From: Alphaproteobacteria bacterium
GTDB lineage: Bacteria; Pseudomonadota; Alphaproteobacteria; 16-39-46; JABJFC01
Assembly (NCBI GenBank): GCA_018662925.1
Contig: JABJFC010000030.1
Coordinates: 1-32,821 of the forward strand
Length of the DNA stretch: 32,821 nucleotides
Direction of reading: 5' to 3'
Shown: positions 2,886-19,313 of the stretch, piece after piece
Position numbering within the stretch: the stretch's first letter is position 1
How the letters are laid out: every line of letters begins with the position of its first letter
The notes under the pieces: generated by a model
The model's input: the letters and a program-made list of their open reading frames with translations, nothing else
Told to the model about the DNA's origin: nothing
The model's database searches: none
Translations under genes and position numbers: made by a program

Positions 2886-4244
2886 ATGGAGCTTACTTTT
2901 CTGGGGGCCACAAGAACTGTCACAGGATCTAAGTATTTATTGACTATTGGCAAGCAAAAGGTGCTTGTTGATTGCGGCTTGTTCCAAGGTCAGAAGGAAC
3001 TACGGCTGCGCAACTGGGCTCCGTTGCCAGTGGATCCAAAGTCGATTGATTCCGTTTTGATCACCCATGCTCACATTGATCATACGGGATATTTGCCTCT
3101 TTTGGTTAAGAATGGTTTTGCAGGACCAATTTACGCGACAGCGGCTACATTTGACTTAAGTTCAATTTTGCTGCCGGACAGTGGGTATCTGCACGAAGAA
3201 GAAGCCCGACGCGCTAACAAGTACGGATACAGCAAACACCATCCAGCCCTTCCACTTTACACGCGTGAGGACGGGGAGACTGCCCTTAAGCAGTTTAAAA
3301 AAATAGATTTTGGAAAACCGTATCCACTTGTTCCCGGAGGATCCGTCACCTGGTTTCCAGCAGGCCATATATTAGGAGCGTCTCTTGTCCAAGTGCAAGT
3401 TGGAAAGAAAAAAGTTTTGTTCACGGGGGATTTGGGGAGATTTGATGATCCTTTGATGCGTGCCCCTGAAAGAATTTTAGGGGCGGACTATTTGATTCTA
3501 GAGTCAACATACGGGAATCATGTTCATGATGTCATTGATCCAGAGGAAAAACTAAAACAGATCATTAACGAGACAGCAAGTCGAGGGGGGACAATTTTAA
3601 TTCCCTCTTTTGCTGTGGGGCGTGCCCAGAGCCTCTTGTATTATATTTTTAAACTGAAGTCCGAGAAATTAATCCCAGATTTACCTGTCTTTCTTGATAG
3701 TCCAATGGCCATAAATGCGACCAAACTTTTGTGTCGTCACGCTAAGGATCATCGTTTAACTGATGCAGAGTGTAGAGAAGTTTGTAAGGTAGCGATGTGC
3801 ACAAATAGTGTTGAGCAGTCAAAGTCTATTGATGCAATAGCTTTTCCCAAAATTATTATTTCTGCCAGTGGGATGGCCGTAGGAGGACGCATCCTACATC
3901 ACCTAAAGGTATTTGCTCCCCAAGAGCGAAATACGATTTTGTTAACAGGGTTTCAAGCTGCTGGAACCAGGGGAGAAAAATTACTTTCTGGCTGCACAGA
4001 AATCAAAATTCATGGTGAATATTTTCCTGTCCGGGCACGGGTCGAAAAGTTAACGAATACTTCCGCGCATGCAGATTATGAGGAAATACTTCACTGGTTG
4101 CGAAATTTCAAAAGGGCTCCTAAAAAAGTATTTATTACCCATGGGGAGCTGGAGGCCTCACAAAGTTTGAAAGAACATATTGAGACAGATTTGGGATGGA
4201 GCTGTTATATTCCAAAATACATGGATAAGGAAACTTTGGCGTGA
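2886..4244 (+). CDS. beta-CASP metallo-beta-lactamase-fold ribonuclease
   Basis: Member of the CPSF73/TTHA0252-like family of zinc-dependent RNases. Visible metal ligands are H61, H63, D65 and H66 (HAHIDH), H161 (AGHILGAS), D182 (FTGDLG) and H419 (FITHGE). The beta-CASP insert occupies roughly residues 210-390, with motif C as H395 in TSAHAD. The C-terminal segment is the RMMBL type. The 452-residue length is normal for bacterial members. GGGAGA lies six bases before the ATG. The stop overlaps the GTG of the next gene (GTGA), so translation is probably coupled. The fold and catalytic site are clear. RNA as substrate comes from the family, and whether it acts as endo- or 5'-exonuclease cannot be told. 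Confidence 0.9.
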   Translation: MELTFLGATRTVTGSKYLLTIGKQKVLVDCGLFQGQKELRLRNWAPLPVDPKSIDSVLITHAHIDHTGYLPLLVKNGFAGPIYATAATFDLSSILLPDSGYLHEEEARRANKYGYSKHHPALPLYTREDGETALKQFKKIDFGKPYPLVPGGSVTWFPAGHILGASLVQVQVGKKKVLFTGDLGRFDDPLMRAPERILGADYLILESTYGNHVHDVIDPEEKLKQIINETASRGGTILIPSFAVGRAQSLLYYIFKLKSEKLIPDLPVFLDSPMAINATKLLCRHAKDHRLTDAECREVCKVAMCTNSVEQSKSIDAIAFPKIIISASGMAVGGRILHHLKVFAPQERNTILLTGFQAAGTRGEKLLSGCTEIKIHGEYFPVRARVEKLTNTSAHADYEEILHWLRNFKRAPKKVFITHGELEASQSLKEHIETDLGWSCYIPKYMDKETLA

Positions 4245-5752
4245 CACAGGGTAGCAATCTTTTGCAGTTAAAGCGTTTGGGCATAGATACCTATAAAGAG
4301 GCCGTCATTTATTTACGTACCGATTGCCACATGTGTCGCTCAGAAGGATTTGAGGTGCATGCTCGTGTAAGAGTGACGCTAGGGGGCAAGAGCATTTTGG
4401 CGACCTTAAACACACTGGAGGGAGATTTGCTGCAGCAGGGAGAAGCTTCTCTGTCAAATTATGCCTGGGAGTTATTGGGGGCAAATGATGGCGATCCCGT
4501 CCAATTGTCCCATCCAAATCCTTTGCAATCTTTAAGTTTTGTTCGGTCAAAAATTTACGGGAATAGCTTAAAAAAAGACGAAATCAAGAGTATCATTGGA
4601 GACATTGCACTGGGGCGATATTCAGATATACACATCGCGGCCTTTTTAACAGCATGTGCCGGTGGACGGTTAAATGAACAAGAAGTTACAAGTCTTACGG
4701 AATCAATGATAGAAGGTGGCCAAAAATTAACTTGGTCAGTAGATACGGTTGTTGATAAACATTGTGTCGGAGGACTTCCAGGAAATCGCACGACGCCTAT
4801 TATAGTACCTATTGTTACGGCATTTGGACTTACGATGCCGAAGACTTCTTCCCGAGCCATTACATCCCCAGCGGGAACGGCTGATACCATGGAGACGTTG
4901 GCTCCGGTGGATTTGGATTTAAAAGCTATGAAGCGTGTGGTAGAGCAGGAACAAGGCTGTATTGTATGGGGTGGTTCCGTTTCTTTAAGTCCTGCAGATG
5001 ACATCTTAATTGGTGTTGAAAGAGCCATGGATCTGGATAGCGAAGGGCAATTGGTAGCCTCAATGCTCTCCAAGAAAATATCCGTAAGTTCTACTCATGT
5101 TCTTATCGATATTCCGGTCGGTCCGACAGCTAAAGTGCGCTCATTCGAAATGGCCCATACCTTAGAGCACTTATTTCAAGTGGTTGCCCAGAAAATAGGC
5201 TTAAATCTCTCTATTATCCTCTCGGATGGATCCCAGCCAGTAGGGCGTGGAATTGGGCCGGCTTTGGAGGCATGGGATATTTTGGCCGTTCTGCAAAATA
5301 AATCAGAAGCGCCTCAAGATTTGAGAGAGCGAGCTTTGATTTTAGCAGGGAATATCCTGGAATTTTCTCCAAAAGTGGCAGTGGGGGAAGGCAGAAAGAT
5401 TGCCGAAGATATTCTAGAAAGTGGGAAGGCTTTTGAAAAGTTTCAAAAAATTTGTGAAGCTCAGGGGGGACTTCGAGAGCCTCCTGTAGCCAAGTACACC
5501 CACTCTATCCTCTCTCCGCAGAGAGGATGTGTTGCTAATATAAATAATAGGCAATTGGCTCGTTTGGCGAAACTTGCGGGGGCCCCCCACGATAAAGCTG
5601 CGGGTGTGGAATTACATGTGCCTCTGAGAACGTTAGTTGATAAAGGGGAACCCCTCGTAACAATTCATGCAGAATCTAAAGGTGAATTGAGCTATGCACT
5701 TTCCCTACTAGACCAAATCCCCGAGATTATTCAAGTGGAGGCAGGTGAATGA
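4241..5752 (+). CDS. AMP phosphorylase / thymidine phosphorylase-like protein
   Basis: Belongs to the long (about 500-residue) branch of the pyrimidine-nucleoside phosphorylase family that includes archaeal AMP phosphorylase, which converts AMP and phosphate to adenine and ribose-1,5-bisphosphate. Residues 1-85 form the extra N-terminal domain of this branch. The phosphate loop is DKHCVGGLPGNRTT at 172-185, in place of the KxSxGGxGDK form of ordinary thymidine phosphorylases. TSSRAITSPAGTADTME at 202-218 is also of the AMP-phosphorylase type. The usual serine of the loop is cysteine (C175). It starts with GTG overlapping the RNase stop, after AAGGAAA, and its stop overlaps the next ATG (ATGA). 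The nucleotide substrate is inferred; thymidine phosphorylase activity remains an alternative. Confidence 0.88.
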   Translation: MTQGSNLLQLKRLGIDTYKEAVIYLRTDCHMCRSEGFEVHARVRVTLGGKSILATLNTLEGDLLQQGEASLSNYAWELLGANDGDPVQLSHPNPLQSLSFVRSKIYGNSLKKDEIKSIIGDIALGRYSDIHIAAFLTACAGGRLNEQEVTSLTESMIEGGQKLTWSVDTVVDKHCVGGLPGNRTTPIIVPIVTAFGLTMPKTSSRAITSPAGTADTMETLAPVDLDLKAMKRVVEQEQGCIVWGGSVSLSPADDILIGVERAMDLDSEGQLVASMLSKKISVSSTHVLIDIPVGPTAKVRSFEMAHTLEHLFQVVAQKIGLNLSIILSDGSQPVGRGIGPALEAWDILAVLQNKSEAPQDLRERALILAGNILEFSPKVAVGEGRKIAEDILESGKAFEKFQKICEAQGGLREPPVAKYTHSILSPQRGCVANINNRQLARLAKLAGAPHDKAAGVELHVPLRTLVDKGEPLVTIHAESKGELSYALSLLDQIPEIIQVEAGE

Positions 5753-6636
5753 AGCCTCTCATCTTTAGCTTATTTGAAGAGAACACACTTGCAGATTCGG
5801 TGGCGAAAGGGCTTGAGGCTGATCGAGGAAAAATTCTTAGACGGAGATTTCCTGATGGGGAGACCTATCTTAGGGTCGAAGAGAATGTGAAGGGGCGGGA
5901 TATTGTGGTTGTTGATAGCTTGGATCAACCTGATGAAAAAATATTACCTCTTCTATTTTTCTCGGATACTGTGAAAGAGTTGGGGGCGAGAAGCATTGGG
6001 TTGGTTGCTCCTTATCTGGCATACATGAGGCAAGACAAGAGATTTCGTCCGGGGGAAGCTGTTACATCTAATTGTTTTGCGGGGCTGATTTCTAAATATT
6101 TCGATTGGCTTGTAACCTTGGATCCTCATCTCCATCGGCATAAAACATTAGATGAAATTTATTCAATTCCCAACTCGGTTGTTTCAGCTGCAGATTCGAT
6201 TGTGGAATGGATTGGATCACAAGTAGACAACCCATTGCTTATAGGGCCGGATGAAGAAAGCAAGCAGTGGGTTGTGCAGATTGCAGATGCCCTTGACGCT
6301 CCTAATATCGTTTTGGAAAAAACGCGTTTGGGAGATAGAACAATAGAACTCACTTTTCCCGATCTGGCAGCTTATAAAGACCATACTCCCGTTCTGGTGG
6401 ACGATATTATTTCGACAGCAACGACGATGATAGCTTCACTTCAAGAGTTAAAAAAAGAAAAATTTCACCCGGCAGTTTGTATTGGAGTCCATGGAATTTT
6501 TGCCGGGGATGCCTTTAAAAAGTTAAAGAGTGCAGGGGCAGAGAGAATTGTTACTTGCAATACAGTTCCCCATGAAAGCAACAAAATAGATATATCTGCT
6601 CCCCTTTGTGAAGGGATTTTGCAGCAACTGATCTAG
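5749..6636 (+). CDS. prs: ribose-phosphate pyrophosphokinase family protein
   Basis: PRPP synthetase family, 295 residues, closer in motifs and length to archaeal enzymes than to the roughly 315-residue bacterial housekeeping type. RQDK at 94-97 matches the ATP-binding region. H127 in DPHLH matches the metal-binding region, and K191 and R193 (EKTRLGDR) the catalytic loop. VDDIISTATT at 217-226 is the PRPP loop, so it is probably active. It overlaps the phosphorylase gene by four bases after a strong GGAGG site. Its position suggests a role in recycling ribose phosphates from RNA or nucleotides. It may be a paralogue, with another prs elsewhere, so the symbol is tentative. Confidence 0.85.
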   Translation: MKPLIFSLFEENTLADSVAKGLEADRGKILRRRFPDGETYLRVEENVKGRDIVVVDSLDQPDEKILPLLFFSDTVKELGARSIGLVAPYLAYMRQDKRFRPGEAVTSNCFAGLISKYFDWLVTLDPHLHRHKTLDEIYSIPNSVVSAADSIVEWIGSQVDNPLLIGPDEESKQWVVQIADALDAPNIVLEKTRLGDRTIELTFPDLAAYKDHTPVLVDDIISTATTMIASLQELKKEKFHPAVCIGVHGIFAGDAFKKLKSAGAERIVTCNTVPHESNKIDISAPLCEGILQQLI

Positions 6637-15672: not shown

Positions 15673-16644
15673 CTATTTTTTAAGCATGCCAGTACATTCT
15701 ACCGTTTTTCTAATTGTATCGGAGGGGCTAGGCAAGTTCATAATCAGCAAGACGCCGAGGATGATGAGAGCCGTACACCCAATCATAACGAATTTGGAAG
15801 GTCGCTTTCTGAACTTTCTTTTCTTTGGGAGAGGCTCCATTTTACTTGTGTCTAAATTTTTCTGTTGTTCGGCAAATTCTTCTGGCGTTTCTGTAAAAGG
15901 AAGAGCCCCGCAGTCGGAGATGAGATCACTAAGTTCACTGGCAATTTCATCTAACAACTCTTCATGAATACCACGTGCTACCAGACTTGTTCCATGGCCT
16001 TCTGGTAAATAGAAAGGATAGCTTCCTATGTCTATGTGGGAGTGTTTTTTTTGTAATTCCGTTAGCGGTTTTGCAACGATGCCTTCGGCTAGGAAACAGT
16101 TGATAGTGCGTGAAAAAACTTTACTGCCACGTTCAAGTGTTGGAATCAGCGCCTCAAACATACTGCGCATGATATAAGGGACACCTGCGAGAACGAAAAT
16201 ATTTTCGATCTGGAACCCTGGAGCAGTTGTTTCCGGATTATTGATTAAAATAGCTCCGACTGGCATCTGAGCCATCTTTTTTCGTGAATCGGTCAGATCA
16301 TCGCCGTAGTGCTCTTCAAGGCGCCTGAGGACTTCTTCATTGTATTCTAAGGGGAGGTCAACGGCTTCAGCAATGCAAGCTGCTGTAATGTCATCATGGG
16401 TTGGGCCAATGCCTCCAGTGGTAAAAACATAGTTATAGTCTTCTTTTACCTCTCGAACGGTCTCTATAATTGTTTCATCAATATCTGGAATTATTCTTAC
16501 TTCTTGCAGATAGATTCCAAGGTCAGCAAGTCCTTTGCCAATGTATTGCACATTTTCATCTGGGGTGCGTCCTGACAGAATTTCATTCCCAATAATAAGG
16601 ACACATGCCGTGGGATTCTCGCGGAAACTTTTGAATTTTGTCAT
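15673..16644 (-). CDS. CinA-N/MoaB-like protein with C-terminal membrane anchor
   Basis: Residues 11-175 are a molybdopterin-binding-like (MoaB/CinA-N) domain: LIIGNEILSGRTPDEN near the start, then FTTGGIGPTHDD at 74-85 and VLAGVPYIM at 151-159. Related alphaproteobacterial proteins are usually about 250 residues. This one has 323: after a linker there is a basic stretch (KKRKFRKRPSK, 274-284), a hydrophobic segment (about 286-303) and a 20-residue tail. That predicts a single helix holding the enzyme domain at the cytoplasmic face. The CinA C-terminal deamidase (PncC) domain is absent. Enzymatic activity of such stand-alone domains is uncertain (molybdopterin-related or nucleotide pyrophosphatase). 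It lies divergent to sfsA with 40 bases between starts. Confidence 0.85.
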   Translation of the reverse strand: MTKFKSFRENPTACVLIIGNEILSGRTPDENVQYIGKGLADLGIYLQEVRIIPDIDETIIETVREVKEDYNYVFTTGGIGPTHDDITAACIAEAVDLPLEYNEEVLRRLEEHYGDDLTDSRKKMAQMPVGAILINNPETTAPGFQIENIFVLAGVPYIMRSMFEALIPTLERGSKVFSRTINCFLAEGIVAKPLTELQKKHSHIDIGSYPFYLPEGHGTSLVARGIHEELLDEIASELSDLISDCGALPFTETPEEFAEQQKNLDTSKMEPLPKKRKFRKRPSKFVMIGCTALIILGVLLIMNLPSPSDTIRKTVECTGMLKK

Positions 16645-18668: not shown

Positions 18669-19313
18669 ATGCCACAAGAAATAGATTTTGATAAGGAGAT
18701 CAAATTTCTGGCGATCGCTGAAAATTTGAAAACGGAAATGCGGCACAGCTGGCTTTCAGATGGCCGTCACGAGAGTGTGGCAGAGCATACATGGCGGCTT
18801 AGTTTAATGGTTTTGCGTTATGCTCACCAATTGGATCAACCTGTGGATGTTTTAAAGTGCTTAAAAATAGCCATCGTGCATGATCTACCAGAAGCTATCG
18901 CTGGTGATATTCCTGTTATGGAAGCTCAGACATCAGAGGCAAAGAAAAGGAAAGAGCAAGCTGAGTTAGAGGGAATGACACGAATAAAGGATCTGCTTGG
19001 GGATGGAAATGGTGAGGAGCTATTTGAGATTTGGATGGACTATGAACGTCAGGATTCTTATGAAAGCAAATTTGTGAAGGCCCTCGATAAGCTGGAAGTA
19101 TTTATTCAACACAACGAGGCCCCTATAGAAACTTGGGAATATGGGGAAAAGGAAATGATGTTCCAAGACAAGTGGCTAAGAAAGTATTGTGCATTTGATA
19201 GTTTTTTAAATGCTTTTGCCAATAGAGTTACAGAGGATAGTCTAAATAAGCTCAAGGCTGCAGGTGAGGATCTTGAGGCTATAAAAAAGACGGCTTTGGA
19301 AAAAGCGGCGTAA
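18669..19313 (+). CDS. HD domain phosphohydrolase, YfbR/HDDC2-like
   Basis: 214 residues. The HD metal site is visible as H34 and H40 (RHESVAEHTW), H71-D72 (IVHDLPEA), and a later aspartate in VKALDKLE. This pattern matches the YfbR/HDDC2 group of 5'-deoxynucleotidases acting on dNMPs. The substrate is inferred from the group. AAGGGA precedes the ATG. It ends the sfsA operon; 167 bases separate its stop from the convergent ABC transporter gene, and I found no convincing terminator there. Confidence 0.85.
   Translation: MPQEIDFDKEIKFLAIAENLKTEMRHSWLSDGRHESVAEHTWRLSLMVLRYAHQLDQPVDVLKCLKIAIVHDLPEAIAGDIPVMEAQTSEAKKRKEQAELEGMTRIKDLLGDGNGEELFEIWMDYERQDSYESKFVKALDKLEVFIQHNEAPIETWEYGEKEMMFQDKWLRKYCAFDSFLNAFANRVTEDSLNKLKAAGEDLEAIKKTALEKAA

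Follow-up and report, generated by a model that had tools for sequence, protein, structure and literature searches.

A candidate RuBisCO-independent route for the ribose of RNA in a bacterial operon of nuclease, NMP-phosphorylase homologue and PRPP-synthetase homologue

What would an alphaproteobacterium do with an operon that places an RNase-like gene, an archaeal-type nucleotide phosphorylase and a homologue of phosphoribosyl pyrophosphate (PRPP) synthetase end to end? The question arises from contig JABJFC010000030.1 of assembly GCA_018662925.1 (Alphaproteobacteria bacterium), of which the stretch analysed here, 32,821 nucleotides long, is called the window. The three genes follow one another on the plus strand, with an infC-like gene on one side and convergent lipid A genes on the other:

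2886..4244, plus strand: beta-CASP/RMMBL metallo-hydrolase (RNase), 452 amino acids, from its open reading frame (ORF), domains and motifs
4241..5752, plus strand: AMPP, a homologue of nucleoside 5'-monophosphate (NMP, here AMP) phosphorylase, 503 amino acids, GTG start, TIGR02645 / NF003338
5749..6636, plus strand: PRS2, a class III-like PRPP-synthetase homologue, 295 amino acids, ATG start, NF005537 / PRK07199

The operon is probably a form of the archaeal NMP shunt that runs in bacteria without RuBisCO, a scheme whose reactions are all inferred from the coordinates, conservation, co-occurrence, fusions and neighbours observed. The beta-CASP enzyme would degrade RNA, as its family and gene linkage suggest, and AMPP, for which the indications are strong, would use phosphate to split 5'-NMPs into free bases and ribose-1,5-bisphosphate (R15P). 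PRS2, the observed partner of AMPP, would then connect the ribose bisphosphate to ribose 5-phosphate (R5P) or PRPP, most usefully by going back to R5P with the anomeric phosphate saved on a nucleotide. Finally, as gene linkage in other species suggests, R5P would be converted to xylulose 5-phosphate, from which phosphoketolase and acetate kinase would provide ATP when oxygen is limiting or the cell is stressed. The operon shares the phosphorylase active-site residues, and R15P as expected product, with the archaeal NMP shunt or pentose bisphosphate pathway (Thermococcus kodakarensis TK0352, R15P isomerase, type III RuBisCO), but the window genome has neither R15P isomerase nor RuBisCO, and the partners are a PRPP-synthetase homologue and a nuclease. 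We found no description of the gene trio, or of R15P together with phosphoketolase, in the open-access literature, subscription papers lying outside the search.

Gene layout and the product of the phosphorylase

The nuclease stop and the AMPP start share GTGA (4241-4244), the AMPP stop and the PRS2 start share ATGA (5749-5752), and each of the three starts is preceded by purine-rich sequence; the ORF coordinates thus bear out the overlaps and ribosome-site-like tracts described in an earlier sequence-only reading of this DNA. That reading had also held the catalytic motifs intact in all three proteins, and direct inspection agrees, with HAHIDH, GHILGAS, TGDLG, ESTYG, SAHAD and ITHGE in the nuclease, DKHCVGGLPGN, KTSSRAITSPAGTAD and SKK in AMPP, and FPDGE, RQD, DPH, KTR and DDIIST in PRS2.

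AMPP scores 683 bits against NF003338 (cut-off 434) and 608 against TIGR02645 (cut-off 435), and its relatives usually carry the database label 'thymidine phosphorylase family protein'. Taken at its word, the label would make AMPP a thymidine or pyrimidine-nucleoside phosphorylase with a PRPP synthetase nearby, which we consider very improbable. The superfamily is the same, and R261, S274 and K278, which presumably contact the nucleobase, align with nucleoside phosphorylases. However, AMPP aligns at 341 bits to the Thermococcus AMP phosphorylase (4ga5), whereas the best nucleoside phosphorylase gives 141, and AMPP is identical to the archaeal enzyme at 11 of 11 AMP-binding/catalytic and proton-donor positions (G168, S194-S199, T203, D256, S264 and K288 in UniProt). 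The SRAITS signature further separates the two groups, its position being occupied by SGRGLGH in the pyrimidine-nucleoside phosphorylase 7m7k:

4850..4867, plus strand: SRAITS segment, AMPP amino acids 204-209, corresponding to amino acids 194-199 of Thermococcus AMP phosphorylase

Natural fusions to PhnN, the ribose-1,5-bisphosphate kinase, likewise imply a bisphosphate product. In genome G288 PhnN (168.8 bits, cut-off 156) and AMPP (NF003338 543.5, cut-off 434; both NCBIfam cut-offs) are encoded as one continuous reading frame, and in a survey of 150 genomes of one family PhnN directly precedes AMPP at six examined loci, with the same long span in three further copies. Additionally, single genes annotated phnN extend over AMPP on Pacificitalea and Variovorax plasmids, such that the fusions recur in Burkholderiales and on a Rhodobacterales plasmid, with nadC directly upstream in G288 and both plasmids. 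Since PhnN acts on R15P, these fusions indicate that the AMPP domain family very probably has R15P, and not ribose-1-phosphate, as its product or substrate. Active-site identity and fusions together support well the conversion of NMPs to R15P that had been proposed for this phosphorylase, and R15P is, as judged from sequence, very probably the product of AMPP, as it is of the archaeal AMP phosphorylase (PMC8376864, PMC9700705).

As an observation in its own right, nadC followed by a PhnN::NMP-phosphorylase fusion (L145:7425-10080; L188:3261-6227; L189:3292-6287) resembles a PRPP-forming route, perhaps for pyridine nucleotides.

Partnership, spread and the nuclease

AMPP and PRS2 are near-obligate partners. 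Among 249 Pseudomonadota genomes at least 90% complete, AMPP occurs in 33 and PRS2 in 31, and all 31 PRS2 genomes carry AMPP (Fisher p = 1.6e-37, not phylogeny-corrected, the counts not being phylogenetically independent). The two genes lie no more than 300 bp apart in 30 of 32 pairs, and the two AMPP genomes without PRS2 hold a PhnN fusion in one case and a broken AMPP in the other. The 150-genome survey gives the same picture, with AMPP in 19 of 19 PRS2 genomes and a PhnN fusion in most AMPP genomes that have no PRS2, so that PRS2 is confined to AMPP genomes in both surveys. At the best 80 loci in GTDB, where relatives number at least 575, PRS2 lies directly 3' of AMPP in 65.

Carriers are found in Alpha-, Beta- and Gammaproteobacteria, Bacteroidota, single metagenome-assembled genomes (MAGs) of Gemmatimonadota and Myxococcota, and Criblamydia, on a plasmid of the Chlamydiota. 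This spread excludes a module limited to close relatives, and it extends to Proteobacteria without RuBisCO, for which a survey had been suggested: the genes co-occur across classes and phyla, and half of the carriers have no RuBisCO. The window AMPP clusters with that of a Legionellaceae MAG (69-70% identity, SH-aLRT 99), apart from other alphaproteobacterial copies, and relatives occur on 116 plasmid records, 46 of them predicted conjugative; this grouping and the plasmid carriage indicate that the module moves horizontally. Among the phage matches listed, a single unannotated faecal 'phage' contig reached 55% identity and the others stayed below 30%. A near-identical 13 kb stretch that includes all three genes is present in Burkholderiales and Pseudomonas rhodesiae (L071, L073, L077, L080, L083, L086) and is apparently a recently spread genomic island.

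Profiles assign the nuclease Beta-Casp, RMMBL and Lactamase_B domains with the metal-site motifs in place, and its closest solved relative is the RNase TTHA0252. It shares these domains and motifs with TTHA0252 and the CPSF-73-like beta-CASP RNases, from which it differs in being bound to an operon and in falling under the equivalog cut-offs for aCPSF1 and type VII Cas14. A type VII CRISPR (Cas14) identity was rejected, at 358 bits against a cut-off of 800. At 38 of the 80 loci the nuclease gene lies immediately 5' of AMPP in the same orientation, and in 6 others it is 3' of PRS2, while yet other lineages have the order nuclease-PRS2-AMPP. Its presence in several gene orders indicates that its linkage to the module outlasts rearrangement, and this linkage makes it plausible that the nuclease is the source of NMPs for AMPP.

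The fate of the ribose

Where would the R15P go? The sequence-only reading had noted that RuBisCO and R15P isomerase are absent from the stretch, and this extends to the whole window genome (96.7% complete), in which neither PF00016, for RuBisCO, nor PF01008, the IF-2B family of the isomerase, has a match. RuBisCO occurs in 17 of the 33 AMPP genomes, a mild enrichment (p = 0.008, not phylogeny-corrected), which would make it an alternative sink only in certain lineages; as a general sink it is rejected. PhnN fares no better as a general next step, being found in 9 of 33 AMPP genomes and 49 of 216 others (p = 0.66), the background rate. It was not found in 24 of the 31 genomes with both AMPP and PRS2, nor above cut-off in the window genome. 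The PhnN branch of phosphonate metabolism has R15P chemistry and the natural fusions in common with the module, but the window genome and most carriers are without PhnN, and the fusions seen with their flanks stand in nadC operons. With no isomerase family, RuBisCO or above-cut-off PhnN, PRS2 is the one candidate found in the window genome for taking R15P to R5P.

The neighbours point toward catabolism. At 14 of the 80 loci a phosphoketolase gene is found no more than about 6 kb from AMPP, and at 7 an acetate kinase gene; since phosphoketolase genes number about one in every five multi-megabase genomes, chance would place well under one of them there. A plasmid of Criblamydia sequanensis (Parachlamydiales; L151, 1-9674) carries a fermentation-like operon of phosphoketolase, glucan phosphorylase, ATP-cone protein, nuclease, AMPP, PRS2 and acetate kinase, while a Ciceribacter locus holds PRS2, a phosphoketolase-sized gene annotated 'xylulose 5-phosphate 3-epimerase', nuclease and AMPP. 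At a Legionella anisa locus, AMPP and PRS2 stand with an alternate F1Fo-ATPase, another energy link. In Bradyrhizobium diazoefficiens at 0.5% O2, bll3115 (metallo-beta-lactamase hydrolase), bll3116 (PRPP synthetase), bll3117 ('thymidine phosphorylase family') and the phosphoketolase bll2518 are all induced (PMC6515984, Table 2), with protein log2 changes of 2.9, 4.4, 2.1 and 4.3 and RNA fold changes of 15.4, 7.7, 5.1 and 8.2, respectively (PMC6515984). Phosphoketolase and acetate kinase neighbours, together with induction at low oxygen, favour an ATP-yielding catabolism of RNA ribose over PRPP supply and suggest that RNA can be an emergency fuel for bacteria short of oxygen.

Other recurrent neighbours of AMPP are universal stress proteins, CBS proteins, polyhydroxyalkanoate-type genes and P-type ATPases. 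They fit an alternative in which AMPP sets the AMP pool and the level of R15P, as a regulator, in energy stress, the nuclease being linked merely through a shared stress regulon. The Bradyrhizobium induction would suit this as well, as would those AMPP genes that have no PRS2 or adjacent nuclease, but many lineages, with several gene orders between them, have the nuclease gene translationally coupled or very close, and we judge the alternative improbable.

An ATP-cone protein recurs beside the module in Bacteroidota and Criblamydia (L090, L091, L097, L099, L100, L107, L109, L110, L151, L154); the copy in L107 has an Mrr-like nuclease domain, and this neighbour may regulate the module by sensing nucleotides.

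PRS2 and the end of the pathway

PRS2 matches NF005537 at 389 bits (cut-off 322), and its best solved relatives are archaeal (1u9y, 3mbi, 3lpn, 4twb), in agreement with its earlier description as archaeal-like. It has the fold, catalytic residues and R5P loop of class III (archaeal) PRPP synthetases, retaining FPDGE, RQD, H127, D168, K191, R193 and the DDIxS(T/S) loop, and with these residues in place, binding of nucleotide and R5P and phosphate transfer are to be expected of it. Unlike class III enzymes, it has an HLHR motif, an invariant D-x-E in place of D-x-G and, in its family, usually a basic residue in the R5P loop:

6127..6138, plus strand: HLHR motif, PRS2 amino acids 127-130; H127, H129 and R130 invariant in 109 of 109 AMPP-linked PRPP-synthetase homologues
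6250..6258, plus strand: D-x-E loop, PRS2 amino acids 168-170; E170 in the same 109 of 109

Position 170 is Gly in solved PRPP synthetases (DxGG / DxGA; DKGA, DRGA), and the set with Glu includes 21 proteins just 30-41% identical to the window PRS2. This loop presumably faces the diphosphate end. A 2026 survey of PRPP synthetases defined extra bacterial classes and nowhere mentions a phosphorylase.

Given the invariant E170, and because an enzyme that consumes R15P is otherwise missing, we propose, as an unlikely but specific possibility, that PRS2 acts on R15P and is not a PRPP synthetase in function, catalysing R15P + AMP -> R5P + ADP, the reverse of R5P + ADP -> R15P + AMP. Attack would be at the beta-phosphate as in PRPP synthetase, with ADP replacing ATP and the reaction run in reverse; a variant would be R15P + ATP -> PRPP + ADP, in place of PhnN. 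The Thermoplasma PRPP synthetase 3MBI has been reported with ADP-Mg in a closed conformation, and the canonical Mycobacterium smegmatis enzyme is almost inactive with ADP (PMC5395218), which argues against an ADP mechanism for ordinary enzymes.

PRS2 might instead be an ordinary forward PRPP synthetase, with AMPP recycling the base and ribose of NMPs, and PRPP and bases rebuilding nucleotides. The retained residues speak for this, as does the position of the PhnN::AMPP fusions next to nadC, a PRPP consumer, and so does the class I prs of the window genome (G000:C57:73210-74138, L111), which is split into two frames by a one-base shift just past RQD. The shift may be an assembly error or a real loss; if real, PRS2 is the sole intact PRPP-synthetase homologue. 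However, it would be nearly futile to break NMP down to R15P only to invest ATP in making PRPP from R5P, and the window genome offers no other way from R15P to R5P. The neighbouring phosphoketolase, acetate kinase and stress genes, the low-oxygen induction in Bradyrhizobium, the lack of PhnN in the window genome and most carriers, and the invariant E170 also speak against such an end, and we find this conventional salvage possible though doubtful. The earlier proposal of a path from RNA through NMP and R15P to PRPP accordingly stands up to R15P, while its PRPP and nucleotide end is not well supported and is to be revised.

Several observations weigh against the RuBisCO-independent shunt that we favour. 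Phosphoketolase was not found in the window genome, where R5P would enter the pentose-phosphate pathway or PRPP, and it is present in 11 of the 33 AMPP genomes, two thirds being without it. AMPP reaches 479 bits against the TIGR03327 AMP-phosphorylase equivalog, under the cut-off of 535 although positions 2-493 of 500 are aligned, and is therefore filed as a homologue and not as the archaeal equivalog. The Bradyrhizobium genes are equated with the module by annotation and gene order, not by alignment. Among the exceptions G374, G397 and G432 are AMPP genes with neither PRS2 nor fusion, which have stress or polyhydroxyalkanoate-type surroundings or a nuclease present. Finally, a real frameshift in the class I prs would leave PRPP synthesis in the window genome to PRS2.

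Elsewhere in the window, an HD-domain hydrolase that is not linked to the operon resembles, by eye, YfbR 5'-nucleotidases (18669-19313, plus strand), and a CinA/MoaB-like protein (15673-16644, minus strand) has, by eye only, a hydrophobic, membrane-anchor-like C-terminal segment that looks unusual for its family. A scan for promoters and terminators gave matches no commoner than in shuffled sequences, and an Rfam search of the window gave zero matches.

R15P metabolism in ordinary bacteria is known chiefly from phosphonate breakdown. If the favoured account is true, a widespread module induced at low oxygen takes ribose from RNA without RuBisCO, which would explain hundreds of genes labelled thymidine phosphorylase and spare PRPP synthetase and give a concrete answer to the role of archaeal-type NMP phosphorylase outside archaea. 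Should PRS2 act on R15P, AMPP and PRS2 together would turn RNA-derived NMP and phosphate into base, R5P and ADP, and such a route feeding phosphoketolase would be a fermentation of RNA.

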